A DNA stretch of 64,000 nt, taken from positions 2,787,241 through 2,851,240 of the forward strand of contig NZ_JAUSQZ010000001.1 of assembly GCF_030811555.1 (NCBI RefSeq), written 5' to 3'. Source of the stretch: Kineosporia succinea (GTDB lineage Bacteria; Actinomycetota; Actinomycetes; Actinomycetales; Kineosporiaceae). The stretch's first letter is position 1; the number at the start of each line of letters is the position of its first letter. Below the pieces are notes generated by a model, which did no database searches, was not told where the DNA came from, and worked only from the letters and a program-made list of their open reading frames with translations. Below are positions 4,771-25,215 of this stretch, piece by piece. The position numbers were made by a program, and so were the translations under genes.

Positions 4771-5289
4771 ATGAAGAAGATGCTGATCATCGGTGGGGCG
4801 GCGGCCGCGGCGATCCTGCCGGCGGGGCTCGGGCTCGCGGCCAACCCCTCCCTCAGCGCGGAGCGCGCTGTCGACCAGAGCAACGTGCGGCTCGTGGAAC
4901 AGGTGACCGCCACCTCCAGCCCGGATGCCACGTCGACTCCTCGCGTCACGGGCACGGCTGACGATCGTGGTCGTCGCCACGGTGGGCGCGGCGCCGATGA
5001 CAATCGCAGCAGCCCCACGAACACCACCAGTTCGCCGGGGGCCACGCATCGCTCCGTCGACGACCATGGTGGACGTCGTGGTCGCGGTTCCGACGACAGT
5101 GCCACTCACCGGAGCAGCCACTCGACGACCAGCACGCCGTCGAGCACCTCCTCGAGCGGCCACGTGCGGCACGGCGGTGACGACGACGGGTCCCACCATC
5201 GCGGCCGGGGCGGCGACGACAAGGGCAGCGACGACAAGGGCAGCGACGACAAGGGCGGCCGCCACGGCGGCCACGGCAGTGACGACTGA
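4771..5289 (+). CDS. Exported Asp/His/Gly-rich protein upstream of a sensor kinase
   Basis: The 172-residue product has a signal peptide (MKKMLIIGGAAAAAILPAGLGLAA) and a mature part that is almost all low complexity: repeated GGRGADD, HGG and DDKGSDDKG units. Three copies of a 15-bp repeat (5215-5259) encode the DDKGS run. The many Asp and His residues could bind divalent metal. AGGAGG lies just before the ATG. The TGA stop is followed directly, in the same frame, by the GTG taken as the start of the sensor kinase, and the acidic low-complexity character continues across the stop. It may feed a signal to the kinase. Confidence 0.7.
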   Translation: MKKMLIIGGAAAAAILPAGLGLAANPSLSAERAVDQSNVRLVEQVTATSSPDATSTPRVTGTADDRGRRHGGRGADDNRSSPTNTTSSPGATHRSVDDHGGRRGRGSDDSATHRSSHSTTSTPSSTSSSGHVRHGGDDDGSHHRGRGGDDKGSDDKGSDDKGGRHGGHGSDD

Positions 5290-6933
5290 GTGACGACGGC
5301 GAACGGCGGTGACGACCGGGGCGACGACCGGAGCGACGACGACGGGGATGAGCGCGGCGGCCGTGAAACGGACATCCGCGATGACCGGGCTGCCGGTGGT
5401 GACCAGGCCCCCCGTGGTGACCGGGCTGCCCGTGGTGACCGGGCTGCCCGTGGCGACCGGGCTGCCCGTGGCGACCGGGCTGCCCGGCACCACGACTGGG
5501 ACACCGACGCGGCGGACCAAGATGTGGGCATGACCGAACCGACCGATCCCGAGCCCGAGGGTGCCGAACCGGCCTGGGTCAGCGTCACCGGCGCCGGCAC
5601 GGCGCGCACCTTCGATCAGCCGCTGCACTGGGGGCGGCTGGTCGGGGGTGTCGTCGTGCTGGCGCTGCTGGTGTTCGTCGGGGTGGCGGCGGCCAGCGCG
5701 ATCACGGCCCGCCGGGCGGCCGAGCGGGAAGCGGTGAACGACGCCCTGGCGATCACCGACGTGCTGGGTGAGTCGGTGATGCAGCCGGCGCTCACCGACG
5801 ACCTGTTCTCCACCGACGCGACCACCCGGACGACGGCGCTCGGGAGGCTCGACACCACCGTCCGCGAACGTCTGCTGTCGGCCACGATCGTGCGGGTCAA
5901 GCTCTGGAAGCCCGACGGCACGATCGTCTACGCCGACGAACCCCAGCTCATCGGAATGCGTTTCGCGCTCGACGACGAAGAGCTCGAGGCCCTCGAGAAC
6001 CCGGTCACCAAGGCCGAGATCAGCGACCTCAGCTCGCCCGAGAACCAGTTCGAGCGCGAGAACGACCGCAAGCTGCTCGAGGTCTACCGCCCGGTCTGGG
6101 CCCCGGACGGGCAGACGCTGCTGTTCGAGACCTACTCCGCCTACGACGCGGTGACGGCCCGGACCGGCGACCTCACCCGGGGTTTCGGCGGGATCACGCT
6201 CACCAGCCTGCTGCTCATGCTGGTCGCCCAGGCCCCGCTGACCTGGGCCCTCGTGGCCCGGGTGCGACGTTCGCAGCGCGATCGCGAGGCCTACCTGGCG
6301 CGCGCCGTGCAGGCCTCCGACGACGAGCGCCGCCGGATCGCGGCCACCCTGCACGACGGCGCGGTGCAGGAACTGGTCGGCAGCGCGTTCCTGGTGGCCG
6401 GGGCCGCCGACCGGGCCCGCGCCGCCGACGATCGCACCACCGCGCAACAGCTCGACCTGGCCGCGGGTTCGGTGCGCTCGAGCATCGGCGGGCTCCGCTC
6501 GCTGCTCGTCGACATCTACCCGCCGAGCCTGCGTAACGCCGGTCTACGCTCGGCGCTGACCGATCTCGCCGCCCCGCTGCGGGCCCAGGGGGTGAGCGTC
6601 GAGGTCGCCGTGCCCGACGACACCGGGCTGCCGCCGGAGAAGGAGGAGCTGATCTTCCGGGTGGCCCAGGAATGCCTGCGCAACAGCATGAAACACGCGG
6701 ACGCCGAGAACGTGCAGGTCACGTTGACGGGTCCCGACGACGAAGGACGCACGGTGCTGGAGATGGTGGACGACGGGGTCGGCTTCGATCTCGGCTCGGT
6801 GGCCGGGCGGCCGGAGGAGGGGCACTTCGGTTTCCGGCTCGTCGCCGACCAGGCCTCCGCCGCCGGGGCCGAGCTGCTCGTGCGCACCGCTCCCGGTGCC
6901 GGAACCCGATGGCGACTGGAGATTTCCCGATGA
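5290..6933 (+). CDS. NarL-family sensor histidine kinase with repetitive acidic N-terminus
   Basis: The product has 547 residues if translation starts at GTG 5290. Residues 1-80 are Asp/Arg-rich and include four GDRAAR repeats encoded by an 18-bp tandem repeat (5413-5484). A transmembrane segment lies near residues 117-138, then an extracellular sensing region, then a second segment near 298-323. A HisKA_3 motif (DDERRRIAATLHDGAVQEL) has the phosphoacceptor His at about 355. A HATPase domain follows, with QECLRNSMKHA, DDGVGFD and GHFGFRL motifs. An alternative start is the ATG at 5530, which removes the repeats; neither start has a good Shine-Dalgarno. It overlaps the response regulator gene by ATGA. 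Confidence 0.88.
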   Translation: MTTANGGDDRGDDRSDDDGDERGGRETDIRDDRAAGGDQAPRGDRAARGDRAARGDRAARGDRAARHHDWDTDAADQDVGMTEPTDPEPEGAEPAWVSVTGAGTARTFDQPLHWGRLVGGVVVLALLVFVGVAAASAITARRAAEREAVNDALAITDVLGESVMQPALTDDLFSTDATTRTTALGRLDTTVRERLLSATIVRVKLWKPDGTIVYADEPQLIGMRFALDDEELEALENPVTKAEISDLSSPENQFERENDRKLLEVYRPVWAPDGQTLLFETYSAYDAVTARTGDLTRGFGGITLTSLLLMLVAQAPLTWALVARVRRSQRDREAYLARAVQASDDERRRIAATLHDGAVQELVGSAFLVAGAADRARAADDRTTAQQLDLAAGSVRSSIGGLRSLLVDIYPPSLRNAGLRSALTDLAAPLRAQGVSVEVAVPDDTGLPPEKEELIFRVAQECLRNSMKHADAENVQVTLTGPDDEGRTVLEMVDDGVGFDLGSVAGRPEEGHFGFRLVADQASAAGAELLVRTAPGAGTRWRLEISR

Positions 6934-7565
6934 CCGACGTCCCCCCGTACCGGGTCCTGCTGGTCGACGACCACGCCCTGGTGCGCGCCGGGCTGAGCGC
7001 CCTGCTCGACGCCCACCCGCAGATCCAGGTGGTGGGTGAGGCGTCGGACGGTTCCCAGGTCGTCGAACTCGCCCTGAACTCCGATCCCGACGTGGTGCTC
7101 ATGGACCTTTCCATGCCGGGCACCGACGGGGTGACCGCGACCCGCGAACTGCTGTCCCTGCGTCCCCAGACCCAGGTTCTGGTGCTGACCTCGTTCTCCG
7201 ACCGTGACCGGGTGCGCGACGCGCTCGCGGCCGGTGCGATCGGTTACCTGCTCAAGGATTCCGACCCGCAGGACGTGGTGGCCGGCGTGATCGCGGCGGC
7301 CCGCCGGGGCTCGCCGCTCGACCCCCGGGTGGCCCGCACCCTGCTCACCGAGGGCACGGTCGGCCCGCCGCCCCCGCTGTCGCCGCGCGAGCGGGACGTG
7401 CTGCGCCTGGTCGCGAAGGGCATGGCCAACAAGCAGATCGGCCGTGCGCTCGGCATCAGCGAGCGCACGGTGAAGGTCCACCTGGGCAACGTGTTCCGGC
7501 GGATCGGCGTGCAGGACCGCACATCGGCCGCGCTCTGGGCCAAGGAGAATCTCCCTGACACCTAG
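6930..7565 (+). CDS. NarL/LuxR-family response regulator
   Basis: This 211-residue regulator has a receiver domain with the acidic pair at D13/D14, the phosphoacceptor D59 in VVLMDLSMPG and the conserved Lys in YLLKDSD. The C-terminal LuxR-type helix-turn-helix reads LSPRERDVLRLVAKGMANKQ, then IGRALGISERTVKVHLGNVF. Its ATG overlaps the kinase stop in an ATGA, so the two form a cognate pair. The target genes are not evident. A minus-strand gene cluster ends 4 bases inside its 3' end. Confidence 0.93.
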   Translation: MTDVPPYRVLLVDDHALVRAGLSALLDAHPQIQVVGEASDGSQVVELALNSDPDVVLMDLSMPGTDGVTATRELLSLRPQTQVLVLTSFSDRDRVRDALAAGAIGYLLKDSDPQDVVAGVIAAARRGSPLDPRVARTLLTEGTVGPPPPLSPRERDVLRLVAKGMANKQIGRALGISERTVKVHLGNVFRRIGVQDRTSAALWAKENLPDT

Positions 7566-9424
7566 GCCCTGCCCTGGAGCGACCGCTCCACCCCGAGGTG
7601 CTCGCAGGCCCAGTCCACCGTCGTACGCACGAAGGTCACCCGGTTCTGGGTGTCCAGGAGCTCGTGCCCCTCGCCCGGGAACTGCAGGAACCGGTGCGGC
7701 GCACCGCGTTCCGCCAGTGCCGTGACCACCTGCTCGGCCTCTTCGAGCGGCACGTTCGTGTCGTCGCTGCCGTGCACCACGAGCAGGGGTGCGGTGAGCC
7801 GGTCGATGCGGTGGATCGGCGAGAAGTCGCGCAGCACGGCGGCGTCGGTGTCCGGGGAGCCGTACTTCGACACCGCCGCCGCCCCGATCCACGGTTCGGT
7901 GTGCCGGTAGAAGGTCTCCAGGTCGGCCATCCCGCAGACGTCGACGCCCACCCGGAACAGGTCCGGGTACCAGGTCAGGCCGGCCAGCGTCAGGTAACCG
8001 CCGTAGGAGCGGCCCATCAGCCCCACCCGGTCCGCCTGCGAGACCCCGCTCGAGACCAGGTGTTCCACCGAGGCCGCGACGTCACGGATCGAGCCCAGCC
8101 GCCGGGCCACGTCGTCCGCCGTCTCGAAGGTGCGCCCGAACCCGGACGACCCCCGCACGTTCGGCGCGAACACCGCGACGCCCTCGGCGACCAGCGACTG
8201 GAACAGCGAGTTGTAGACCGGGCGTTCCTGCGACTCCGGCCCGCCGTGCAGGTGGATCATCGTCGGCCAGGGGGCGGGGGAGTCGGGGCGATAGAGCCAG
8301 CCGCTCAGCCCGATCCCGTCGAACGCCGCGAAACGCCGCAGCACCGGCCGGGTCAGGTCGGCCGTGTCCACCGTGGCGTAGCTGGAACCGCGGGAGCCGC
8401 GCAGCTCACCGTCGGCCCGGCTGGTCAGGGGCAGCGTGCTGCCGGTGGCCAGGTCGATGGTCCAGGCGCCGCGCGGGTCCGACCAGTCCTCGGCCGTGAG
8501 CACGAGCGTCGTGCCGTCGGCGTAGAGCCGGCAGTCGTCGACCACGTCGCGGGGCAGCGGCTCGATCCGGTCTTCCTTGCCGGACTCCAGGTCGAGGAGG
8601 CTGACCGCGTTGGTGCCGCCGAACTCGTTCCACAGCAGCACGGCCGTGGCGCCGTCGGGCGAGAGCGTCACGTTCTGGAGCTCGGCGTCCGCCCTCTGGG
8701 CCAGAAGCTCCGAGGAGCCCGAGCTCAGGCGGACCCGCACCAGCGCCGCCAGGTCACGATCGGCCTCGCTGCGTGCGTAGACGAACTGCCCGTCCGGTGA
8801 CAGACCACCCAGATCGGCGAAACCGCCGCGCTCTCCGGAGACCGAGGTGTTGACCGTGAGCTCGTCCGAACCGTCCAGCGCGCAGACCGACAGGGTGCGG
8901 TAGCTGCGCGGCCCCCGGCGCAGCAGGACGCGCCCGCCCGCCACGTCCAGCAATGTCACCAGCGCACCCGACGTGATCACCGCGCGCTCCCCGGAGGACG
9001 GCGAGATCAGCACCGCCGAGGCGACCGCCCCGACCGTCTCCGTGACCATCAGACGTCCGTCGTGCGTCCACCCGTGGTGCGCCCCCGAACCCAGCCACGC
9101 CGTGGATCCCGGGCCGCCCGCGAGCTGACGCAGACCCGAGCCGTCGGGCCGCACCACCCAGATCTCGTCACGGGAGCTGCCCGCGCCGGCCACCAGGCAG
9201 GCCAGCCAGGTACCGCACGGCGACCAGCTGATCGACAGCACCCTCTCGAGCGCGATCCCGGGCCGGACCGGCTGGGCGCCAACCGGTTTGACCCAGATCG
9301 CGGGGGCTCCGCCGCGGTCGGAGATGAACGCCATCCGCTGCCCGTCGGGCGACGGCGAGGGCGACCAGCTGCCGTAGACGTCTTCCGGAACGGCCTCGGA
9401 GGACTGTTCCTCGAACTGCGTCAC
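7562..9424 (-). CDS. S9 (prolyl oligopeptidase) family peptidase
   Basis: The 620-residue cytosolic protein has an N-terminal beta-propeller-like half (WSPSPSPDGQRMAFISD, LSPDGQFVYARS) and a C-terminal alpha/beta-hydrolase. The nucleophile lies in GRSYGGYL (Ser about 473), the acid in HGSDDTNVP (Asp about 555) and the base in GEGHELL (His about 587). The oxyanion region HLHGGPESQ is present. The GTG start at 9424 overlaps the upstream amidotransferase stop by GTGA; an earlier ATG would extend into that gene. Co-translation with a peptide-forming ligase and an amidotransferase suggests that it trims, recycles or exports-activates a small peptide-like product; that role is inference. Confidence 0.88.
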   Translation of the reverse strand: MTQFEEQSSEAVPEDVYGSWSPSPSPDGQRMAFISDRGGAPAIWVKPVGAQPVRPGIALERVLSISWSPCGTWLACLVAGAGSSRDEIWVVRPDGSGLRQLAGGPGSTAWLGSGAHHGWTHDGRLMVTETVGAVASAVLISPSSGERAVITSGALVTLLDVAGGRVLLRRGPRSYRTLSVCALDGSDELTVNTSVSGERGGFADLGGLSPDGQFVYARSEADRDLAALVRVRLSSGSSELLAQRADAELQNVTLSPDGATAVLLWNEFGGTNAVSLLDLESGKEDRIEPLPRDVVDDCRLYADGTTLVLTAEDWSDPRGAWTIDLATGSTLPLTSRADGELRGSRGSSYATVDTADLTRPVLRRFAAFDGIGLSGWLYRPDSPAPWPTMIHLHGGPESQERPVYNSLFQSLVAEGVAVFAPNVRGSSGFGRTFETADDVARRLGSIRDVAASVEHLVSSGVSQADRVGLMGRSYGGYLTLAGLTWYPDLFRVGVDVCGMADLETFYRHTEPWIGAAAVSKYGSPDTDAAVLRDFSPIHRIDRLTAPLLVVHGSDDTNVPLEEAEQVVTALAERGAPHRFLQFPGEGHELLDTQNRVTFVRTTVDWACEHLGVERSLQGRA

Positions 9425-11193
9425 AGCCCGACCCGCTGGAGCCAGAGCTCGAGCAGGCCGAGCTGCCACACCACGTTCGCGCCGATCGTGGTGCGGGCGA
9501 CGTTGGGATCGGCCAGCAGAGTGTTCACGACCTCGGGACGATACAGGGCGCGGTCTTTCGCTGTCTGCGACAGGAGCGCGTCGCTGACCCGGTCGAGAAT
9601 CTGACCGTCCAGGTGGCGCACCCCGGGGACCGGGAAGTACCCCTTCGTCCGGTCGATCACGGCATCCGGCACCACGCCGCGCGCGGCCTCCTTCAGCACG
9701 CCCTTGCCGTGGTGGGCGAGCTTGAGCTCCGGCGGGCAGAGGGCGGCCAGCTCGACCAGCTCGTGGTCGAGGAAGGGCACCCGCGCCTCCAGCCCGAACG
9801 CCATCGTCATGTTGTCCACCCGCTTGACCGGGTCGTCCACCAGCATCACCCGGCTGTCGATGCGCAGCGCGGCGTCGAGCGTGGTCTCCGCACCCGGCGC
9901 GGCGAAGTGCTCACGCACGTAGGCGAGGCTCGGGTCGCCGGACACGTGGTACTGCGGATTGAGCAGCCCGGCCACCAGATCGCCCGGCCGGTCGAAGAAC
10001 ACGTCGGCGTAGGCCTCGACGGCTCGCGCACGGGGGACGCCCGCCAGCGGCGGGTACCAGTCGTACCCGGCGAACACCTCGTCCGCGCCCTGGCCCGACT
10101 GCACCACCGTGATGCTCTTCGAGACCTCTTCGGAGAGAAGGTAGAACGCGACACAGTCGTGGCTCACCATCGGCTCGCTCATCGCGCCGATCGCCCCGTC
10201 GACGCCCCGCGCCAGCCGGTCGTTCGGGATCATGATCCGGTGGTGATCGGTGCCGAACTCCCGCGCCATCAGGTCGGAGTACTCGAACTCGTCGCCGCTC
10301 TCACCGGCCACCGGGTTGAAGCCGATGCTGAACGTGGCCAGGTCTTTCTGCCCGGCCCGGGCCAGCAGCGCCACGATCAGGCTGGAGTCGAGCCCGCCGG
10401 AGAGCAGGACGCCCACCGGGACGTCGGAGACCATGCGGCGGCGGACAGCGGTGTCCAGGGTGTCGAGCACCCGATGGCGCCACTCGTCGGCACTCAGCGA
10501 AAGATCGCGCTGAGCCGGGGGATTCCAGTACAGCGAGTCGGTGAAGGAGCCGTCCGGCTCGACAACCCGCACGGTGGCGGGAGGCAGCTTGCGGACGCCG
10601 GACAGGATGGTTCGCGGGGCGGGTACCACCGAGTGCCACGAGAGGTAGTGGTGCAGGGCCACCGTGTCGATGCTCGTGTCCACGTCGCCGGCCGCGAGCA
10701 GGGCGGGCAGGGTGGAGGCGAACCGGATGCGCTGCGGGGTCTGACTCAGGTAGAGCGGTTTGATGCCCAGCCGGTCGCGGGCCATCACCAGACGGCCGGT
10801 GTCGAGCTCGTGGATCACGAACGCGAACATGCCCAGGAAGCGGTCGACGCACCGGACGCCCCAGCGGTGGTAGGCCGCCAGGATCACCTCGGTGTCGGAG
10901 GTGGAGCGGAACCGGTAGCCGTGGCCCTCCAGCTCACGCCGCAGCTCGTGGTGGTTGTAGACGCAGCCGTTGAACACCAGCGCCAGGCGCAGCTCCTCGT
11001 CGACCATCGGCTGCGACCCGGCCTCGGAGAGGTCGATGATCTTCAGCCGGTGGTGCAGGAACGCGACCGGGCCGTGCGACCAGGTGCCTTTCGAGTCCGG
11101 CCCCCGGCGTTCGAGGCAGGGCGACATCCGCCCCACGGCCTCGAGGTCAGGTACGCCCCCGTCCAGCCGGAACTCGCCACCCAAGCCGCACAT
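9421..11193 (-). CDS. Asparagine synthase-type amidotransferase, N-acetylglutaminylglutamine amidotransferase-like
   Basis: The 590-residue protein begins MCGLGGEF, so Cys2 becomes the N-terminal nucleophile of the class II glutaminase. LERRGPDSKGTW, HHRLKIIDLS and VFNGCVYNHHELR complete that domain. The synthetase half has the PP-loop LLSGGLDSSLIVALL and GQGADEVFAGYDWY. From memory, the N-terminal sequence resembles the amidotransferase of the NAGGN osmolyte operon more than house-keeping AsnB. It should amidate a carboxylate on a small peptide using glutamine and ATP. The ATG at 11193 has GGAGG upstream. It lies 77 bases after the ligase gene and overlaps the peptidase gene. Confidence 0.85.
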   Translation of the reverse strand: MCGLGGEFRLDGGVPDLEAVGRMSPCLERRGPDSKGTWSHGPVAFLHHRLKIIDLSEAGSQPMVDEELRLALVFNGCVYNHHELRRELEGHGYRFRSTSDTEVILAAYHRWGVRCVDRFLGMFAFVIHELDTGRLVMARDRLGIKPLYLSQTPQRIRFASTLPALLAAGDVDTSIDTVALHHYLSWHSVVPAPRTILSGVRKLPPATVRVVEPDGSFTDSLYWNPPAQRDLSLSADEWRHRVLDTLDTAVRRRMVSDVPVGVLLSGGLDSSLIVALLARAGQKDLATFSIGFNPVAGESGDEFEYSDLMAREFGTDHHRIMIPNDRLARGVDGAIGAMSEPMVSHDCVAFYLLSEEVSKSITVVQSGQGADEVFAGYDWYPPLAGVPRARAVEAYADVFFDRPGDLVAGLLNPQYHVSGDPSLAYVREHFAAPGAETTLDAALRIDSRVMLVDDPVKRVDNMTMAFGLEARVPFLDHELVELAALCPPELKLAHHGKGVLKEAARGVVPDAVIDRTKGYFPVPGVRHLDGQILDRVSDALLSQTAKDRALYRPEVVNTLLADPNVARTTIGANVVWQLGLLELWLQRVGL

Positions 11194-11270
11194 GCATGAA
11201 CCTCCAGAGCGCATCGCCGAACGTGGTTCCGAGTTGACACGCGGCCCGGGGGTGCGCGCAACCCGAAAGG

Positions 11271-13829
11271 TCAGCGAAGCAGCCAGGTGTCCTTCGAGCC
11301 TCCGCCGCGGGAGCTGTTCACCACCATGCTGCCGGCGGGCGCCACGCGGGTGAGGGCGGTGGGCGCGACGACGAGTTCGGGCGTGCCCGGGTTGAGCACG
11401 AACGCGCGCAGGTCGATGTGGTGCGGGGCGAACTCCTGGCCGGTGAAGCACGGCATCGTGGACAGCGACACCATCTCCTGGGCGATCCACCGGTGCGGAG
11501 CCGTGAGCAGCTGCTTGCGGTGCGCCTCGATCTCCTGCTCGCTCGCCAGCGGGCCGATCAGCACCCCCTCGCCGCCGTACCCGTCCACCGGCTTCAGCAC
11601 CAGCTCCTCGAGCCGCCCGAGCACCTCGGCGGCCATCTCCGGCACCCCGCACAGATACGTCTGAACGCTGTCCAGCAGCGGCTTCTCGCCCAGGTAGTAC
11701 TCGATCATCCGGGGCACGAACGTGTAAACGGCCTTGTCGTCGCCGACCCCGTTGCCCGGCGCGTTGGCCAGCACCACCCGGGCCGCGCCGACCGCCGAGA
11801 GCAACGACGGGCCGATCGGGCGTCCGTCGGCCCCGGCCGTGTGCAGCAGGGCCTCCTCGTCCACCCGCAGGTAGAGCACGTCGACGCGGGTGCGCCCGCC
11901 CTCACGCAGCAGGTACACGGTGTCGTTCTCGACCAGGAGGTCGCCGATCACGGCCACCGGCACGTCCATCTCGCCGGCCAGCAGGTTGTGCTCGAACCAG
12001 GCCGAACCCTCCGGGCCCTCGCTCAGCAGCACGACCTGCGGCGTGTCGGGGGCCGAGGGCAGGGCCGCCGCCTCCAGCGTCTGCTTGAGCAGGGCCGGCA
12101 CCTGGTCGGGGTCGAGCAGGTCACCCGGCCGGGGCAGGTCGCCCATCACGGCGTTGTTCAGGCGCCGGTTCTGCACCGAGTAGCCCAGGCCGGAGGGCAC
12201 CCGCAGGTTGTCTTCGAGGATCCGCCACTCACCGGTCGCGGAGTCTTTCACCAGGTCCATCCCGCTGATGTGGGCGCGCACCTTCTGCCGGTGCACCAGC
12301 GCCCCGGTGCCGCGCAGCCCGGGGGCGGACTCGACCACCCAGGCCGGCACCACGCCCTCCTTCACGATGGCGCGCTCGCCGTAGACGTCGTGCAGGAACG
12401 CGTCGAGCGCGGCCGCCCGCTGCCGCAGGCCGAGCCCCAGCGTCGACCACTCGGCGGCCGGGATCACCCGGGGCACCAGGTCGACCGGGAACAGCCGGGC
12501 GCTGGCCCGGCCCGGCACCCCGAAGGTCACGCCGTGCGAACGCTGCTCCTCGTCGCGCCGGCGCTCGCGCTGCCGCAGCCCGGCCGGGCCGAGGTCTTCG
12601 AGCACCGAGAAGATGCCGCGGTAGGCCTCGGTCGGGCCCTGGGCCCCGAGCGCCTCGTCGCCGTCGCGGGTGTAGAGCGGAAGAGCGGCCGGATGCCCGG
12701 GCTCACCCGGAACGGTCGGCGCGGACTGGTCCGGGTCGGTGCGGCTGACCAGCATGTCGACCACGTCGGCGAAGCGCTCGCGGCGGTCGTAGACGGCGCG
12801 CTGCTCGGCTGCGGAGCTGCCGCGCACCAGAGCGCGTTCGGCCAGCTCGCTCACCTGGGTCCAGTCGCCCGCCTCCTCCAGCTGGGGACGCAGGTCGTCG
12901 AGCAGGTGGTGCAGGACCTCGGGCGCGGGGAGGGGCCGCGAGGAGTGGGGGAGGTCGAGCAGGTCGCCCTCCAGCCCGGAACGGGCCGCCCGCCACAGCG
13001 CTGCGCGCAGCAGCGGGGAGGGCCAGCGGCGGGCCGGTACACCGGCGTCGATCGCGGCGCTCTCCTGCCGCACCATCGCCCGGAACAACCCGGCCAGCAG
13101 CACCACGGTGTCGAGGTCGGGGCAGGCGTCGGTGATGCGCAGCTCGAGCGTGGGCAGGTGCGAGGAGGGCCGGACGTCGAAGTAGATCATCCCGGCGTCG
13201 CTGATCGTGCCCGACTCGACCAGGTCGGCGATCAGCTGGTCGTGCTCGGCGGCGCTGGTGATCTCGCCGCTCAGGCCGGCGGTGGGCCAGCGTGACCACA
13301 GCAGCGAGCGGTTGCTGGCGTAGCCCGAGTCCTCACCGTGCCAGAACGGGGAGCTGGCCGACAGCGCGAGCAGCGCGGGCAGCCGGGGGGTGACCCGCTG
13401 TGCGATCTGCACGGCCCGGTCGCGGTCGGTGACCTGCACGTGGACCTGGGCCCCGCAGATCAGCTGCTCGCGCACCAGCGACTGGTACTCGTCGAGCATG
13501 TGCTTGTAGCGCTTGCTCGGCGTCACCGACAGCTGCAGCGGGTCGACCAGCGGCACCGTGCCCGCGGCGACGATCCCCAGGCCCATCGGCCGGGCCACCT
13601 CCACCAGCGTGCGACGGGTCTCGACGAGCGCTCGGCGCAGGTCGTCGAGGGTGTCGCAGACCGGGGTGTTGCTCTCGACGACGCTGCGCTGCAGCTCGTC
13701 GGAGTAGGTCTCGGTGGGGAGGTGCTCCAGCAGCTTCGGGGCCTGGGCGACCAGTTCCCGGGAGAGCAGGTCGACGACGTGGAACTCTTCCTCGACGCCC
13801 AAACTGGTCAGTTCACCGGGACCGGTCAC
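11271..13829 (-). CDS. Carboxylate-amine ligase (GCS2) fused to circularly permuted ATP-grasp
   Basis: The 852-residue protein joins two amide-bond-forming modules. Residues 1-370 are a GCS2/YbdK-type domain: TSLGVEEEFHVVD carries the Glu cluster, QLICGAQVHVQV the central strand, and LELRITDACPD the metal and substrate loop. Residues about 390-852 are a circularly permuted ATP-grasp (DUF404/407 type), with GIFSVLEDLGPAGLRQRERR, ILEDNLRVPSGLGYSVQNR and LKPVDGYGGEGVLIGP. It starts at GTG 13829 with GAGG upstream. The usual partners of the permuted ATP-grasp (alpha-E domain protein, transglutaminase) are absent. It is first in a transcript with an amidotransferase and a peptidase and probably builds their substrate. 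Confidence 0.9.
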   Translation of the reverse strand: MTGPGELTSLGVEEEFHVVDLLSRELVAQAPKLLEHLPTETYSDELQRSVVESNTPVCDTLDDLRRALVETRRTLVEVARPMGLGIVAAGTVPLVDPLQLSVTPSKRYKHMLDEYQSLVREQLICGAQVHVQVTDRDRAVQIAQRVTPRLPALLALSASSPFWHGEDSGYASNRSLLWSRWPTAGLSGEITSAAEHDQLIADLVESGTISDAGMIYFDVRPSSHLPTLELRITDACPDLDTVVLLAGLFRAMVRQESAAIDAGVPARRWPSPLLRAALWRAARSGLEGDLLDLPHSSRPLPAPEVLHHLLDDLRPQLEEAGDWTQVSELAERALVRGSSAAEQRAVYDRRERFADVVDMLVSRTDPDQSAPTVPGEPGHPAALPLYTRDGDEALGAQGPTEAYRGIFSVLEDLGPAGLRQRERRRDEEQRSHGVTFGVPGRASARLFPVDLVPRVIPAAEWSTLGLGLRQRAAALDAFLHDVYGERAIVKEGVVPAWVVESAPGLRGTGALVHRQKVRAHISGMDLVKDSATGEWRILEDNLRVPSGLGYSVQNRRLNNAVMGDLPRPGDLLDPDQVPALLKQTLEAAALPSAPDTPQVVLLSEGPEGSAWFEHNLLAGEMDVPVAVIGDLLVENDTVYLLREGGRTRVDVLYLRVDEEALLHTAGADGRPIGPSLLSAVGAARVVLANAPGNGVGDDKAVYTFVPRMIEYYLGEKPLLDSVQTYLCGVPEMAAEVLGRLEELVLKPVDGYGGEGVLIGPLASEQEIEAHRKQLLTAPHRWIAQEMVSLSTMPCFTGQEFAPHHIDLRAFVLNPGTPELVVAPTALTRVAPAGSMVVNSSRGGGSKDTWLLR

Positions 13830-13988: not shown

Positions 13989-14984
13989 TCAGAGCCGGGC
14001 CAGGATCTGGGCCTCCTTGGCCGGATCGAGCCCCAGCCGCGGCCGGTCGGAGCGCTGCGGCGCTTCGCCACCGATCGACTGCAACCAGGCCCAGGTGTCG
14101 GCGACCGTCTCCCGCACCGGCCGGTTGACGAGCCCGGTGGCCAGGGCCTTCGACGGGTCGCTGAGGTGCATCCCGGCGTGGTCGGGACCCGGCGGGATCC
14201 AGACCGGCAGCTCCATCCACGCGGCGACGTCCTCGAGCTGATCGGGGGCGGCCCAGCGCAGCGTCGCCCGCGAACCGGTGACCTCGGCCCCGATCCGCAG
14301 GAACTCGCCCATGGTGGTGTGCCCGGGCGGGCTGATCAGGTCGTACGGACCCGAAAGGCCTTGCTCGGCGGCCCCGATCGTCCACGCGGCCAGATCGCGC
14401 GCGTCGATGTACTGCAGCGGCAGGTCTTGCGGCCCGGGTGCCAGCACGTCCCCTCCACGCGCCAGACGCCCCAGCCACCAGGGCAGCCGGCCGATGTTCT
14501 CCCAGGGCCCGAGGATCAGCCCGGCCCGCGCGTGCACGTGCTCGTCGCCGAACGTCTGCTCGATCGCGATCTCGGCACCGCGTTTGGCCTCGGGGTAGGG
14601 CACCTCGGAGCCGTCACGCCCGGCCTCCGGATCGCCCTCGGTCAGGGGCGCGCCCTCGTCGGCCCCGGCCGGGGTGGGGTACTGGTACACCGACCGCGTC
14701 GAGACGAAGAGATAGCGCCCCACCTGGCCTTTCAGTGCCCGCACGCTATCGTGCACCACGTACGGCTCGCGGCTCCAGGTGTCGACCACGACGTCCCACG
14801 CGCCGCCGCGCAGCGCGTCGAGCCCGCCGGGCTCCCGCCGGTCGCCCCGCAGCGCGGTGACGGCGCCGTCGGCATCGGCGTTGCCGCCCCGGTTCAGCGT
14901 GGTCACCTCGTGTCCGCGGCCCAGCGCGTCGAGCACCAGCGCCCGCCCCACGAACTCCGTCCCACCGAGCACCAGAATCCTCAT
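13989..14984 (-). CDS. NAD(P)-dependent epimerase/reductase, extended-SDR type
   Basis: The 331-residue protein starts MRILVLGGTEFVGRALV, a Rossmann GGTxFVG motif. VSTRSVYQY supplies the Ser/Tyr region. The later part (PLQYIDARDLAAW, HTTMGEFL) resembles the substrate-binding domain of UDP-sugar epimerase-like and mRNA-binding-like extended SDRs in actinobacteria. The start at 14984 was chosen because MRILVLGG is the natural N-terminus; an earlier start would add 22 unlikely residues. The substrate is unknown. It is separated from its upstream neighbour by a strong hairpin at 15051-15092, so it likely has its own promoter. Confidence 0.8.
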   Translation of the reverse strand: MRILVLGGTEFVGRALVLDALGRGHEVTTLNRGGNADADGAVTALRGDRREPGGLDALRGGAWDVVVDTWSREPYVVHDSVRALKGQVGRYLFVSTRSVYQYPTPAGADEGAPLTEGDPEAGRDGSEVPYPEAKRGAEIAIEQTFGDEHVHARAGLILGPWENIGRLPWWLGRLARGGDVLAPGPQDLPLQYIDARDLAAWTIGAAEQGLSGPYDLISPPGHTTMGEFLRIGAEVTGSRATLRWAAPDQLEDVAAWMELPVWIPPGPDHAGMHLSDPSKALATGLVNRPVRETVADTWAWLQSIGGEAPQRSDRPRLGLDPAKEAQILARL

Positions 14985-15050
14985 GCCCTCACTCTGGCCG
15001 TGAGAACGCCCTGGCGCCAAGCCTTTCTGCGTCGGGAAGAAAACCACCAC

Positions 15051-18697: not shown

Positions 18698-20410
18698 TCA
18701 GGCCGAGGGGATACCCACCCGCACGTCGGGGGCACCCAGGCGCGCCGCGTCGGCGGTCTGGTCGTCGGGCATCTTCTGCGACTCGATCTCCGCCTCCACG
18801 CGCTTGACGTAGTGCTCGATCTCGCGCGCGACCTGCTCGGCGTTCCAGCCGAGCACCGGGGCCACCAGTTCGGCGACCACCGTGGCGGCCTCGACCCCGC
18901 GGTCCCGCACCTCGATCGAGAGGCGGGTGCGGCGGGCGAGGATGTCGTCCAGGTGCTGAGCGCCCTCGTGCGAGGCCGCGTACACGATCTCCGCCTTCAG
19001 GTACTCGTCACCGCCGGGCAGCGGCTCACCCAGCTCCGGTCGCTCCTCGATCAGGGCGAGCAGCTGGGTGTAGAGGCTGCCGTACCGGTTGAGCAGGTGC
19101 TCGAGCACGTGCACCCGCAGCCCGGCCCGCTGGGCGATCGCCTTGCGGTTGTTCCAGGCCGCGAAGTAGCCGTCGGCGCCGATCAGCGGGATCCGCTCGG
19201 TGCAGGAGGGAGCGATGGTGCGCTCCAGCCCGTGCACCGCGTTGTCCACGGCGTCCTTGGCCATGACCCGGTAGGTGGTGTACTTCCCGCCCGCGATCAC
19301 GGTCAGGCCGCGCACCGGGCTGGCCACCGCGTGCTCCCGGGAGAGCGTGCTGGTGGACTCGTCCTCACCGGCCAGCAGAGGCCGCAGGCCGGCGTAGACG
19401 CCGACGACGTCCTCGCGGGTCAGCGGGTCGGCCAGCAGGGCGTTGGCGTGGTCGAGCAGGTAGTCGATGTCCGTCTGGCTGGCGGCCGGGTGGGCCCGGT
19501 CGAGCGCCCAGTCCGTGTCCGTCGTGCCGATCACCCAGTGACTGCCCCGCGGGATGATGAAGAGCAGGCTCTTCTCGGTGCGGTGGATGATCCCGGTCGC
19601 GCTGTTGATCCGGTTGCGCGGGATCACGATGTGCACGCCCTTGGAGGCGCGCACCCGGAACGAACCCCGTCCGCCGACCATCTGCTGGATCTCGTCGGTC
19701 CAGACGCCGGCGGCGTTGATCACGTGCTGCGCACGGATCTCGAACTCCTTGCCCGATTCCAGGTCCCGGGCGACGACCCCGACGACCCGGTCGTCCTCAC
19801 GCAGGAACCGTTCGACCCGGGTGCTGTTGGCGATCGCCGCACCGTAATGAGCCGCCGTGCGGGCGATCATCATGGTGTGACGGGCGTCGTCCACCTGGCC
19901 CTCGTAGAACGAGATGGCACCGGTGATCTCCGAGGTCTTGCCGGAGGGGAACGACTCCTTCGCCTTGGCCCGGCGCATGTACCGCATGTGGTGCGGCACG
20001 CCCCGGCCCGATCCCATGACGTCGTACACGCCCATGCCCAGGGACACGTAGGCGTGGTCGAACGGCTTGGTCAGCGGGTAGATGAACTCGACCGGGTGCA
20101 CGAGGTGCGGGGCGAGGGTCTCCAGGTTCAGCGACCGTTCCTTCAGCGCCTCGAAGACGAGGGCGAAGTTGAGCTGCTCGAGGTAGCGCAGGCCACCGTG
20201 GAACAGCTTGGTCGACCGGCTGGAGGTGCCCGCCGCGTAGTCCCGCATCTCGACCAGGCCGGTGCTCAGACCCCGGGTGACGGCGTCGAGAGCCGTACCG
20301 GCCCCGACCACGCCACCCCCGATCACCAGGACGTCGAGTTCCTCGGCCGCCAGCCGGGCCAGGGCGGCTTCACGCCCCGCCGGGCTGAACGGTTCCTGCG
20401 TGCTGGTCAT
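18698..20410 (-). CDS. glpD: Aerobic glycerol-3-phosphate dehydrogenase
   Basis: The 570-residue flavoprotein has an N-terminal FAD-binding motif ([18 protein letters not shown]), the family signature [16 protein letters not shown], and the C-terminal GlpD cap region. It oxidises sn-glycerol-3-phosphate to dihydroxyacetone phosphate and passes electrons to the quinone pool at the membrane. The ATG overlaps the glpK stop in an ATGA, so the two are translationally coupled. It is the last gene of the operon; a terminator follows. Confidence 0.95.
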
Positions 20411-21921
20411 TCGACTTCAACCCATCCTGTCGTCCGGTCCACGGCCTTCTTCCAGCCCGCGTAACCGCTGGTGCGCTCTTCCTCGGACCAGTCCGGGGTC
20501 CAGCGCTTCGACTCGTTCCAGTTCTGCCGCAGCTCGTCGGTGTTCTGCCAGAACCCGACGGCCAGGCCGGCCGCGTAAGCAGCACCCAGGGCCGTGGTCT
20601 CGGCCACGACGGGCCGGCTGACCGGCACGTCCAGGATGTCCGCCTGCAGCTGCATGCACAGCTCGTTGGCGGTCACGCCGCCGTCCACCTTCAGGACCTC
20701 GAGCTTGACCCCGGAGTCCGCCTCCATCGCGTCGGAGACGTCCTTGCTCTGGTAGCAGATCGACTCCAGCGTGGCGCGGGCCAGGTGTGCATTCGTGTTG
20801 TACCGCGACATGCCGACGATCGCCCCTCGGGCGTCGCTGCGCCAGTACGGCGCGAAGAGACCGGAGAAGGCGGGCACGAAGTACATGCCGCCGGAGTCCT
20901 TGACGCTGCGCGCCAGGGTCTCGATCTCGGAGGCGCCGGAGATGATGCCCAGCTGGTCGCGCAGCCACTGCACGGCCGAGCCGGTGACGGCGATCGACCC
21001 TTCGAGCGCGTAGACCGGCGCACTGTCGCCGAACTGGTAGCAGACCGTGGTGAGCAGGCCGTTCTTCGAGCGGACGAGCTCGTTGCCGGTGTTCAGCAGC
21101 AGGAAGTTGCCGGTGCCGTAGGTGTTCTTGGCCTCGCCCGGGGCGAAGCAGACCTGGCCCACCATGGCGGCCTGCTGGTCGCCGAGGATGCCGGAGATCG
21201 GGATGCCGTGGAACCCGGCCGGGTCCACCACCTCGCCGTACCAGGACGGCTCGGACGACGGGCGGATCTGGGGGAGCATCTGGCGCGGGATGTTGAAGAA
21301 CCCGAGCAGTTCGTCGTCCCAGTCCAGGGTCTCGAGGTTCATCAGCATGGTGCGGCTGGCGTTGGTCACGTCGGTGACGTGCTTGCCGCCGTTGATGCCG
21401 CCGGTCAGGTTCCAGACCAGCCAGCTGTCGGTGTTGCCGAAGATCGCGTCGCCCTTCTCCGCGTCTTCACGCGCGCCGGGGACGTTCTCGAGGATCCACT
21501 GGATCTTGCCGGCCGAGAAGTAGGTGGCCGGCGGGATGCCCGCCTTCTGCCGGATCACGTCGCCCTTGCCCTCACGGTCGAGGGCGGAGGCGATGCGGTC
21601 GGTGCGGGTGTCCTGCCAGACGATCGCGTTGTAGTACGGGCGGCCGGTCTTCTTGTTCCAGACCACCGTGGTCTCACGCTGGTTGGTGATGCCCAGCGCG
21701 GCCAGGTCGGACGGCTGCAGGCCGAGACCGTTGAGCGTGTTGGTCATGACCGACCGCGTGCGCTCCCAGATCTCGATGGGGCTGTGCTCCACCCAGCCGG
21801 CCTGGGGCATGATCTGCTCGTGCTCGAGCTGGTGCTTGCCGCGCTCGTTGCCCTCGTGGTCGAACAGCATGAAACGCGTGGACGTGGTGCCCTGGTCGAT
21901 CGCACCGACGAGATCTGCCAT
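20407..21921 (-). CDS. glpK: Glycerol kinase
   Basis: The 504-residue FGGY-family kinase starts [20 protein letters not shown]. It contains [33 protein letters not shown] and the C-terminal [20 protein letters not shown] segment. It phosphorylates glycerol with ATP to sn-glycerol-3-phosphate. It is 3 bases downstream of glpF and overlaps glpD, so transport, phosphorylation and oxidation are made from one transcript. A second, divergent kinase gene lies at 23677-25215. Confidence 0.96.
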
Positions 21922-21924
21922 GAC

Positions 21925-22773
21925 TTAAAGCTCCTTTGCTTCGACCGGGGTGTTCGGGGGGAGGAACCGCTGCAGGCCGTACTTGTACAGGCCGCCACCG
22001 ACGAGACCGCCGATGATCGGGCCGACGATCGGGACCCAGAAGAAGATGTCGCCGTTCTGGTCCTTGAAGGCTCCGCCGTAACCGGTGACGAACGAGGCCA
22101 GACGCGGGCCGAAGTCACGGGCCGGGTTGATCGCGTAGCCGTCGAGCGTGCCCCACGCCATGCCGATCGCGACGACCAGGAGGCCCACGAACAGCGGGGT
22201 CAGGTTGGCCAGCGGCGGGGAGTTACGGGTGTCGGTGATCGCGAAGACCAGGAAGACCAGGATCGCGGTGCCGATGATCTGGTCGCGCAGGGCGCCGCCC
22301 TGGCCGATCGGCAGGGTGCCGTTGCCCGGGAGCGTCGAGAAGATCCCCTGGGTCTTGATCGTGTGACCGGGGTCGACCACGGCGATCAGGTCGGTGTAGT
22401 TCCAGCGCACGATCAGCGCGGCGACGAAGGCGCCGGCGGTCTGGGCCAGGGAGTAGGGCAGGACCTTCTTCCAGGCGAAGCCCTGGAAGGCCGCCAGTGC
22501 GACCGTCACGGCCGGGTTCAGGTGCGCGCCGCTGATCCGGCCCGCCGCGAAGATGCCCAGCATGACGCCGAAGCCCCAGGCCCAGGTGATGCTGTCGTGG
22601 TCACCGATGCCGCCGGCGACCACCTGGGCCACCACGCCGACACCGAAGAGGATCAGGATGAACGTGCCGAAGAACTCGGCCGCCAGCTCGCCGGCCAGGG
22701 TGGGGACCCAAGGGCGGGGCGAGGGAAGAGGTGGTTCGGTCGTGCGACCCGTTGCGCTTGCCGTCTTTGGCAT
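21925..22773 (-). CDS. glpF: Glycerol uptake facilitator (aquaglyceroporin)
   Basis: The 282-residue MIP-family channel has six predicted membrane segments and two half-helix motifs: SGAHLNPAVTVALA and YAINPARDFGPRL. The Asp after the second NPAR is the hallmark of glycerol-conducting members. The N-terminus has a 25-residue hydrophilic extension rich in Thr and Pro. It is the first gene of the operon and faces the IclR-type regulator; a promoter and a likely operator lie between them. Confidence 0.94.
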   Translation of the reverse strand: MPKTASATGRTTEPPLPSPRPWVPTLAGELAAEFFGTFILILFGVGVVAQVVAGGIGDHDSITWAWGFGVMLGIFAAGRISGAHLNPAVTVALAAFQGFAWKKVLPYSLAQTAGAFVAALIVRWNYTDLIAVVDPGHTIKTQGIFSTLPGNGTLPIGQGGALRDQIIGTAILVFLVFAITDTRNSPPLANLTPLFVGLLVVAIGMAWGTLDGYAINPARDFGPRLASFVTGYGGAFKDQNGDIFFWVPIVGPIIGGLVGGGLYKYGLQRFLPPNTPVEAKEL

Positions 22774-22906: not shown

Positions 22907-23680
22907 ATGCCGGGCTCGATCCAGTCCATCGAGCGTGCCGCCGCGATCCTGCGTCTGCTCGCCGCGGCCCCGAACCCTCTGCGCCTGACCGAGATCTCTT
23001 CATCCGTTCAGCTCCCCCGGGGCACGGCCCACGGGATCCTGCGCACGCTGGTCGATGTCGGATTCGTGCACCAGGACCGGGCTTCCGGGCGTTACCTGCT
23101 CGGCGCCGGGCTGATCGCGCCGGGCAGTGAGCTCGTCGATCCCAACGAACTGCGGGCCCGGAGCCTGAACTGGGCCGATCCGCTGGCCGCCCGGTCGGGT
23201 GAGGCCGTTCGGGTGGTGGTGCCCGACAGCGGTGACGCGCGGGTCGTGCACTACGTCTTCCGGCCCGACCACTCGGCGCAGAAGGCCGATCTGGGCGCGC
23301 TGCTGCCGGGCCACGCCACCGCGCTGGGCAAGGTGCTGCTGGCCTTCCACCCGCCGGCGGTGCAGAGCCTGACCGACGCCCGGCTCACCTTCTACACCGG
23401 GCGTACCCAGATCACCCGCTCCGGGCTGACGGCCGAGCTGAACAAGATCCGGCGTCAGGGCTGGGCGGTGGAGCGGGGTGAGCACCAGATGGACGTGGCG
23501 GGGCTGGCGGCCCCGCTGACCGGGCTGGGTGGACTGGTGGTGGGGGCGATCGGCATCCACGGTGGGGTCGACCGGCTCCTCGACCCCACCGGTGTGCCCC
23601 GGCCCCGCCTTCTCGCCCTGGTGCAGGAGTGCGCCCGGGCCATCGGCCGCGAACTGACGACCCCGAGGACACAGGCGTGA
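22907..23680 (+). CDS. IclR-family transcriptional regulator of the glycerol locus
   Basis: The 257-residue protein has an N-terminal winged helix ([53 protein letters not shown]) and a C-terminal IclR effector domain ([38 protein letters not shown]). It resembles GylR-type repressors of Streptomyces glycerol operons in position. No Shine-Dalgarno precedes the ATG; a TTGTCG/TACCTT promoter with 18-base spacing would start transcription at or next to the ATG, so a leaderless message is likely. Its stop overlaps the second glycerol kinase GTG as GTGA. Confidence 0.9.
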
Positions 23681-25215
23681 AGCCCCGTTTCGTGATGGCG
23701 ATCGACCAGGGCACGACGAGCACCCGGTCGATCCTGTTCGACCACAGTGGCCAGCTGGTCGCCGTGTCGCAGCGTGAGCACCACCAGTTCTTCCCGAAAC
23801 CGGGCTGGCTGGAACATGATCCGGCCGAGATCTGGCGCAACGTGGAGAAGGTGGTGAAGCGGGTCCTGGACGACGTCGGGGCCACCGCCGCCGACATCGC
23901 CGCGGTCGGTATCGCCAATCAGCGCGAGACGATTGTGATCTGGGAGCGGGACACCGGTAACCCGGTGCGGCGGGCCATCGTCTGGCAGGACACCCGCACC
24001 GACGCGATGGTCGAGGAGCTCGCCCACCGGCCTGGCGCACAGCAGATCCCGCAGCTCAGCGGCCTGCCGCTGTCCTCGTACTTCAGTGCCCCGAAACTGC
24101 GCTGGATGCTCGACGAGACGCCCGGCCTGCGCGAACGGGCCGAGCGCGGCGAGGTGCTGTTCGGCACGATGGAGTCGTGGCTGATCTGGAACCTCACCGG
24201 TGGTGTGCACGTCACCGACGTGACCAACGCCAGCCGCACCCTGCTGATGAACATCCGCACCCTGCAGTGGGATCCGCACCTGCTGGAGTTCTTCGGGGTC
24301 CCGGCCGCGATCCTGCCGGAGATCCGCGGTTCGCTGGAGATCTACGGCACCGGGCACGGACCGCTCGAGAACGTGCCGATCGCCGCCGCGCTGGGGGACC
24401 AGCAGGCCGCCCTCTTCGGGCAGACCTGCTTCAGTGCCGGTGAGGCCAAATGCACCTACGGCACGGGCAGTTTCCTGTTGCTGAACACCGGCACCGAGCT
24501 GGTCGCGTCCACCCACGGGCTGCTCACCACCGTGGCCTACCAGGTGGCGGGCGAGCCGGCGCACTACGCGCTGGAGGGCTCGATCGCGATCACCGGCTCG
24601 CTGGTGCAGTGGTTCCGCGACAACCTCGGCCTGATCACCAGCGCGGCCGAGATCGAGACCCTGGCGCGAACGGTCGACGACAACGGCGGCTGCTACATCG
24701 TCCCCGCGTTCTACGGTCTGTTCGCTCCGCACTGGCGGCCCGAGGCCCGGGGCGTCATCGCGGGCCTGACCAGCTACATCACCAAGGGGCACCTGGCCCG
24801 GGCGGTGCTGGAGTCGACCGGCTGGCAGACCCGCGAGGTGCTCGACGCGATGAACGCCGACTCCTCGCTGGCCCTGCGCGCGCTCAAGGTCGACGGCGGG
24901 ATGACCTCCGACAACCTGCTGATGCAGTTCGTCGCCGACGTGCTCGACGTGCCGGTGGTGCGCCCGATGGTGGCGGAGACGGTCTCGCTGGGCGCCGGGT
25001 ACGCGGCCGGTCTGGCCGTGGGCTACTGGTCCGACCTGGAGGGGCTGCGCCGCAACTGGCACCTGGCCGCGGAGTGGCTGCCCGACATGGCGCCCGAGCG
25101 GCGGGAGTCGGAGTTCCGGAACTGGACCTACGCCGTGCAGCTGACGCTCGACTGGACCAGCAAGGTGGGGCCCCGGCCCGGTCCCTCCGGCCCGATCACC
25201 GAGGCCAGGCCTTAG
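23677..25215 (+). CDS. glpK: Second glycerol kinase, co-transcribed with the regulator
   Basis: A 512-residue FGGY kinase beginning [21 protein letters not shown], with [34 protein letters not shown] and [20 protein letters not shown]. All core glycerol kinase motifs are intact. It is clearly diverged from the kinase at 20407-21921, with different residues throughout the N-terminal region ([19 protein letters not shown] against [19 protein letters not shown]). The GTG at 23677 overlaps the regulator stop, so it is expressed with the regulator and not with glpFKD. It may act on glycerol at low level or on a related polyol. Confidence 0.92.

Follow-up and report, generated by a model that had tools for sequence, protein, structure and literature searches.

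A predicted GCS2-based counterpart of the NAGGN osmolyte operon in Kineosporia succinea and other actinobacteria

What does an amidotransferase of the N-acetylglutaminylglutamine amide (NAGGN) type act upon when Ngg, its known ligase partner, is missing from the genome? This question is raised by three genes of Kineosporia succinea, which follow one another on the minus strand in the 5' to 3' order GCS2-CP-ATP-grasp fusion, NAGGN-type amidotransferase and S9 peptidase, CP denoting a circularly permuted domain. They are located in a window of 64,000 nucleotides on contig NZ_JAUSQZ010000001.1, which is the whole stretch of DNA analysed and within which positions are counted; the genome is a single contig of 8.07 Mb. 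In the NAGGN pathway, as outlined in a published account (PMC5563000), Ngg acetylates a glutamine and joins a second glutamine to it, and AsnO amidates the result. Judging from sequence, we consider it fairly probable that these genes constitute an operon whose function would parallel that of the NAGGN osmolyte operon, the peptide ligase being a different one. The three-gene set itself is not a matter of chance and recurs across families. A preliminary description of this DNA, which our analysis followed up, had already reported the minus-strand set with an amidotransferase starting MCGLGGEF and an S9 gene in GTGA overlap, and all of these features are borne out.

The amidotransferase and the fused ligase

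The amidotransferase scores 926 bits against the TIGR03104 model (cut-off 570) and 424 bits against the AsnB model TIGR01536. Most of the listed tblastn matches in Sinorhizobium, Azospirillum and their relatives are about 57-60% identical to it, several of them are annotated as N-acetylglutaminylglutamine amidotransferase, and the homologues of Azospirillum lipoferum and Haematobacter adjoin annotated ngg and M42 genes. In a tree of 121 rows, a branch with a support of 99 parts all TIGR03104 rows from four AsnB-annotated rows and one XrtA amidotransferase, these outgroup branches being very long. The AlphaFold model (49 rows) has a predicted local distance difference test value (pLDDT) of 92.7, and a Foldseek search of solved structures with this model places TsnB9 closest and AsnB next. 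As the protein is the single match to PF00733 (asparagine synthase-type) in the 8 Mb genome, it could be asked whether it is the asparagine synthetase of this organism. We find this hardly credible, considering that the TIGR03104 score is about 500 bits above that of the AsnB model, that the AsnB-annotated and XrtA rows stay outside all TIGR03104 rows, that GatB is present in the genome, so that Asn-tRNA could arise by transamidation, and that the linkage to GCS2 and S9 genes would be left unexplained. Ordinary AsnB was therefore rejected on the family score, the tree and the presence of GatB, and the earlier view of the enzyme as NAGGN-type stands.

The fusion protein carries a GCS2 domain in residues 10-286 (PF04107, 198 bits) and a permuted ATP-grasp domain in residues 453-830 (PF14403, CP_ATPgrasp_2, 396 bits). 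Its solved relatives are 1r8g (YbdK) and 3n6x, the latter matched by the CP-ATP-grasp domain with 321 bits. The GhExE motif, which PMC2588565 gives as the signature of carboxylate-amine ligases, is kept as GVEEE, and G11, E13 and E15 are conserved at at least 97% in an alignment of 82 GCS2 rows; the first half is thus a PF04107 member with its signature intact. Nearly all GCS2 domains of such clusters are located in one 61-row branch of the GCS2 tree (support 100), which excludes the paralogue from the same K. succinea genome (locus L002). Outside this branch are L116, the second GCS2 of L218, the reversed gene of L225 and the divergent genes of family f19; several 'par' rows of the tree duplicate genes of the clusters, and the neighbours of orphan GCS2 loci within the branch (L029-L031) are uninformative. 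The fusion-type CP domains also form a branch of their own (support 99), apart from other CP enzymes; in that tree L249, labelled 'canon', is the same gene as L094.

Permuted ATP-grasp enzymes and GCS2-like ligases also feature in proposals for protein- or peptide-tagging systems, and the present set could be another of these. This is very improbable: Alpha-E (PF04168) has no match in the genome of K. succinea and in five congeners, the fusion-type CP domains are on their separate branch, and the constant partner is a small-molecule amidotransferase. An Alpha-E tagging system was rejected on the first of these results, which also agrees with the earlier remark that the usual companion of the permuted ATP-grasp is missing. 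In three other genomes (G761, G753 and G298), a CP enzyme from outside the fusion branch adjoins an Alpha-E gene.

Two versions of the locus among actinobacteria

Ngg (TIGR03103) has no match above the cut-off in the K. succinea genome, where the best score is 33 bits. At 1e-150, TIGR03104 was found in 46 of 396 genomes of the phylum and in 106 of 394 genomes of the class, 15 of them shared, which gives 137 genomes including K. succinea. Our survey covered the surroundings of every TIGR03104 match outside the window, that is 137 loci in 136 genomes, all of them actinobacterial, and genes within 4.5 kb were classified with purpose-built profiles. Ngg is present at 71 of these loci, GCS2 together with CP-ATP-grasp at 41 (38 fusions and three separate-gene loci of family f19), GCS2 alone at 16 (including L116 with a divergent GCS2 and L225 with GCS2 on the other strand), CP-ATP-grasp without GCS2 at one, S9 only at five, and none of them at three. 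Not one of the 137 loci carries Ngg (71) and GCS2 (57) together (Fisher p 2e-29, a value overstated by the relatedness of the loci), which shows that the two ligases are mutually exclusive across the surveyed loci. When loci from the fusion scan and plasmids are added, the 163 loci outside the window comprise 73 Ngg, 57 fusion, 20 GCS2, six S9-only and four f19-type loci and three with none.

The exclusion also holds beyond the locus. Ngg is absent genome-wide from 65 of the 67 genomes with an Ngg-less survey locus (K. succinea included), in a search that detected its two positive controls; a match was obtained in G554, which carries another locus, of the Ngg type, and in G344, where the locus is cut by the contig end. 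In 13 named genomes no Ngg match was found either, in a run that had no positive match of its own and used the same search as proven by the two controls elsewhere. With Ngg missing from the genome and S9 located where M42 is expected, both NAGGN partners are replaced in K. succinea, as the preliminary description had it.

A scan queried with the fusion protein alone gave 33 loci, 19 of which have both domains. All 19 full-length fusions are followed by the amidotransferase and 16 of these then by S9, so the gene set is, as had been supposed, kept together in relatives and recurs across families. The three full-length fusion loci without S9 in that place are L018 (reversed GCS2), L022 (amidotransferase match ending at residue 430) and L024 (class II glutamine amidotransferase-like gene). 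The 19 fusions, which belong to 13 Micromonospora, three Kineosporia and three others, are not 19 independent cases. Five survey genomes have the amidotransferase and S9 without a local ligase; two of them (G727 and G665) carry a full fusion elsewhere, 51% identical, and no full fusion was found in the remaining three. The closest named relatives at the locus are Kineosporia species, with fusions of 85-87% identity, and the fusion is present in six of six Kineosporia genomes and in none of seven from other genera of the family, four of which have a CP-ATP-grasp match without GCS2.

GCS2 looks like the shared core ligase and the CP-ATP-grasp half like an optional addition, because eight of nine GCS2-only genomes (G193, G128, G023, G246, G657, G514, G617 and G554) have a GCS2 match and no CP-ATP-grasp match at 1e-40; in the ninth, G121, the GCS2 of the locus is divergent and two CP matches are located elsewhere. 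Two amide-bond-forming modules in one chain, as first described, are thus a property of the fusion found here but not of a common core. The same distribution bears on the possibility that the product of the fusion is a glutathione-like thiol or another redox peptide (gamma-Glu-X-Y), which is then amidated, by analogy to the bifunctional GshF. GCS2 combined with ATP-grasp is the domain logic of glutathione synthesis, and one Streptomyces record has an OsmC-family gene close to GCS2; however, the CP-ATP-grasp match is missing in those eight genomes, the amidotransferase family is tied to a glutamine dipeptide, and redox genes are not among the neighbours scanned at the locus. A redox peptide is quite improbable on this evidence, and the redox-metabolite role that had been suggested gained no evidence.

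The amidotransferases themselves record the division. In a tree of 79 rows, built without outgroups and without the long rows L115, L116, L224, L225 and L226 and with large families thinned, the enzymes of fusion, GCS2 and S9-only loci share one side of a branch supported by 98 in the Shimodaira-Hasegawa-like approximate likelihood ratio test (SH-aLRT), and the rooted tree of 121 rows gives the same split between GCS2-type and Ngg-type enzymes. Very few positions separate the two types. The clearest switch is in the loop before the C-terminal helix, which reads LTPLRGNxLWQ in the Ngg type and RTTLGANxLWQ in the GCS2 type. Among the 160 amidotransferase rows that reach 500 residues, all 72 Ngg rows have Leu or Ile in position 567 and 67 of them have Arg in position 571, whereas R567 is combined with G571 in 80 of 83 rows of the other type: 56 of the 57 from fusion loci, with the window counted, 18 of the 20 from GCS2 loci, L116 and L225 being the exceptions, and all six from S9-only loci; three f19 rows have K, K and S in position 567 and G in position 571. 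The GCS2-type signature of the S9-only loci is consistent with the fusions located elsewhere in G727 and G665. The loop switch would fit a changed acceptor. Taken together, one amidotransferase family is combined with two ligase-peptidase pairs that are unrelated to each other, and a difference in product is probable.

The peptidase, the predicted product and the layout of the locus

The S9 peptidase matches PF00326 with 154 bits, and S473, D555 and H587, which we take to be its Ser-Asp-His triad, are conserved at at least 97% in 71 S9 rows from such clusters, that of the window being one of them. Its nearest solved relative is the amino acyl peptidase 5l8s, and acylamino-acid-releasing enzymes follow lower down. 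S9 is near 44 of the 57 GCS2-type survey loci, and S9-like matches are near five of the 71 Ngg loci; M42 is near 34 Ngg loci and none of the GCS2-type loci. At the K. succinea locus, M42 is not among the neighbours scanned, a search of the surroundings and not of the whole genome, and S9 is found instead. The idea of a dedicated peptidase thus holds in that S9 is a usual member of the set, and its part in turnover of the product is presumed.

At other loci the peptidase position is taken by DUF1028, a class II glutamine amidotransferase-like protein or M42. In L024 a class II glutamine amidotransferase-like gene (5027-5836; PF13230, barely above the cut-off), which we read as EgtC-like, has the usual position of S9. 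The f19 version (L094, L096, L100 and L117) consists of CP-ATP-grasp and the amidotransferase, to which three of these four loci add a separate, divergent GCS2 gene, and a DUF1028 gene is next in the three loci that are not cut there (PF06267 was found in L094). This DUF1028 protein, presumably Ntn-hydrolase-like, is apparently a third peptidase type. A separate origin of the f19 version is not claimed: its CP and GCS2 are on separate branches, yet the approximately unbiased test does not reject a tree in which its amidotransferase joins the GCS2 type (p 0.288).

The function of each part is inferred from family membership, and the following route is proposed on that footing. GCS2 chemistry uses the side-chain carboxylate of glutamate. 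In the first step, GCS2 would use ATP to join this carboxylate to the amine of an amino acid, likeliest glutamine, to give a gamma-glutamyl dipeptide; where a permuted ATP-grasp domain is fused to it, that domain may attach or alter one more residue. The second step is strongly indicated: the AsnO-type enzyme would use glutamine and ATP to amidate the free C-terminal carboxylate of the peptide. In the third, the S9 peptidase would hydrolyse the product and so tune its pool, a role already suggested for the peptidase in NAGGN systems. The product would be a small net-neutral amidated peptide, distinct from NAGGN and probably a compatible solute; gamma-Glu-Gln amide, as a net-neutral zwitterion, would be suitable. 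An amidated gamma-glutamyl or similar peptide, possibly an osmolyte, had been suggested from the start, and the type of the amidotransferase speaks for amidation, while the identity of the peptide and its role as an osmolyte are predictions.

Several observations weigh against this scheme. GCS2 enzymes vary in substrate, which makes glutamate and glutamine guesses. L116 and L225, although labelled as GCS2 loci, are without the R567 signature, and the 121-row tree places them with the Ngg type. The outgroup root of that tree falls among GCS2-type rows, so that the GCS2 version could be older than the Ngg version, but the very long outgroup branches make the root unsafe. The residue difference goes back largely to one evolutionary event and so may mark ancestry rather than substrate. 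S9 is not nearby in 13 of the 57 GCS2-type survey loci, some of which are at contig ends. Lastly, 22 loci have a GNAT gene after the cluster, all of them in family f96 (one with the gene on the other strand) and none outside it among the loci scanned, which would fit an acetylated product there. In L171, L181, L202 and other f96 loci, this gene comes immediately after that of the amidotransferase if there is no S9, and otherwise beyond S9.

These f96 loci lead to the possibility that the product is NAGGN itself, with GCS2 (and ATP-grasp) making N-acetyl-Gln-Gln in another way, acetylation being provided by a separate enzyme or by N-acetylated precursors, and the amidotransferase acting as in NAGGN systems. 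In addition to GNAT, the score above the TIGR03104 cut-off and the acylamino-acid-releasing enzymes among the S9 relatives agree with this. We nevertheless regard it as unlikely. At 1e-8 the f96 GNAT has no match in K. succinea, five congeners and 14 of 18 other cluster-type genomes, the four matching ones all being f96; two Ngg-type genomes in the same search were also without a match, as expected. In addition, the family chemistry of GCS2 points to the glutamate side chain, and Leu567/Arg571 of the Ngg type contrast with Arg567/Gly571 of the GCS2 type. GNAT as a hidden acetylation partner was rejected for the core set, as it is confined to f96, possibly through shared synteny.

The proposal of a GCS2-built gamma-glutamyl product may be extended. 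Tentatively, and just short of an even chance, we suggest that actinobacteria have a second widespread class of amidated-peptide compatible solute, built by GCS2 (gamma-glutamyl, such as gamma-Glu-Gln amide) and not by Ngg, that the two pathways replace each other by lineage, even within Micromonospora, and that the second was overlooked because the amidotransferase bears the NAGGN name.

The features of the locus are collected in table 1. The best start of the S9 gene is a GTG at 9424, and it overlaps the amidotransferase stop as a 4-base GTGA. The single transcript described earlier is deduced from spacing only; a scan for promoter- or terminator-like patterns found none. Upstream of the fusion, on the same strand, is an epimerase-like gene (13989-15050), and a response regulator converges on the set from the opposite side. 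Further away, two glycerol-kinase-like genes (20407-21921 and 23629-25215) are on opposite strands, with an aquaporin-like (21925-22773) and a regulator-like gene (22907-23680) between them, all four named from sequence reading, and at 5290-5500 a histidine kinase N-terminus has a short tandem repeat of GDRAAR units.

Table 1. Coordinates of the three genes and associated features in the window
Feature	Position	Strand	Details
GCS2 (gamma-glutamyl ligase-like) + circularly permuted type 2 ATP-grasp fusion	11271..13829	-	852 residues, GTG start; PF04107, PF14403
NAGGN-type (AsnO-like) glutamine amidotransferase	9421..11193	-	590 residues, Cys2; TIGR03104
S9 prolyl-oligopeptidase-family serine peptidase	7562..9424	-	620 residues; PF00326
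Amidotransferase loop codons, residues 567-572 (R567...G571 A572)	9478..9495	-	separates GCS2-type from Ngg-type enzymes
Fusion-amidotransferase gap, 77 bases	11194..11270	-	GGAGG ahead of amidotransferase ATG

Relation to known systems

If the proposal is right, it predicts a new metabolite for a large share of the loci with NAGGN-type amidotransferases in actinobacteria (57 GCS2 versus 71 Ngg) and assigns a defined pathway to GCS2 and permuted ATP-grasp enzymes. Micromonospora would be particularly informative. Two studies of this genus count NAGGN clusters by antiSMASH (PMC12915310, PMC11537254), and according to a third report Micromonospora provocatoris, described as having asnO and ngg, makes NAGGN as seen by nuclear magnetic resonance (PMC8146288). 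Seven other Micromonospora genomes have the fusion and no Ngg match, and the Ngg-type and fusion-type strains constitute a natural experiment on the product. The name can indeed mislead: two Streptomyces plasmid loci without Ngg carry the name 'N-acetylglutaminylglutamine amidotransferase'. In the literature searched, which was not exhaustive and does not establish absence from print, we noticed no description of the GCS2-type gene set.

An earlier sighting of a non-standard AsnO partner is the asnO-ngg cluster of Frankia strains from Casuarina. In the excerpt of that paper available (PMC5563000), AsnO is more than 60% identical to others, the 'Ngg' partner less than 15%, and a dipeptidase is located in the cluster; the order asnO-dipeptidase-'ngg' differs from ours, and within that excerpt the partner is named neither as GCS2 nor as CP-ATP-grasp. 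With the YbdK/EgtA/GCS2 carboxylate-amine ligases the fusion shares the GCS2 domain and the intact GhExE motif, but nearly all cluster GCS2 domains keep to their own 61-row branch. With the CP-ATP-grasp/Alpha-E (COG2308-type) systems it shares the type 2 permuted ATP-grasp domain, whereas here Alpha-E has no match and the fusion CP domains branch separately. The closest likeness is to the NAGGN operon (asnO, ngg, M42; TIGR03104/TIGR03103), which has the same amidotransferase family and the same logic of ligase, amidotransferase and peptidase. On the other hand, GCS2 or the GCS2-CP-ATP-grasp fusion is found here in place of Ngg (GNAT and ATP-grasp), S9 is found in place of M42, and the amidotransferase loop differs.

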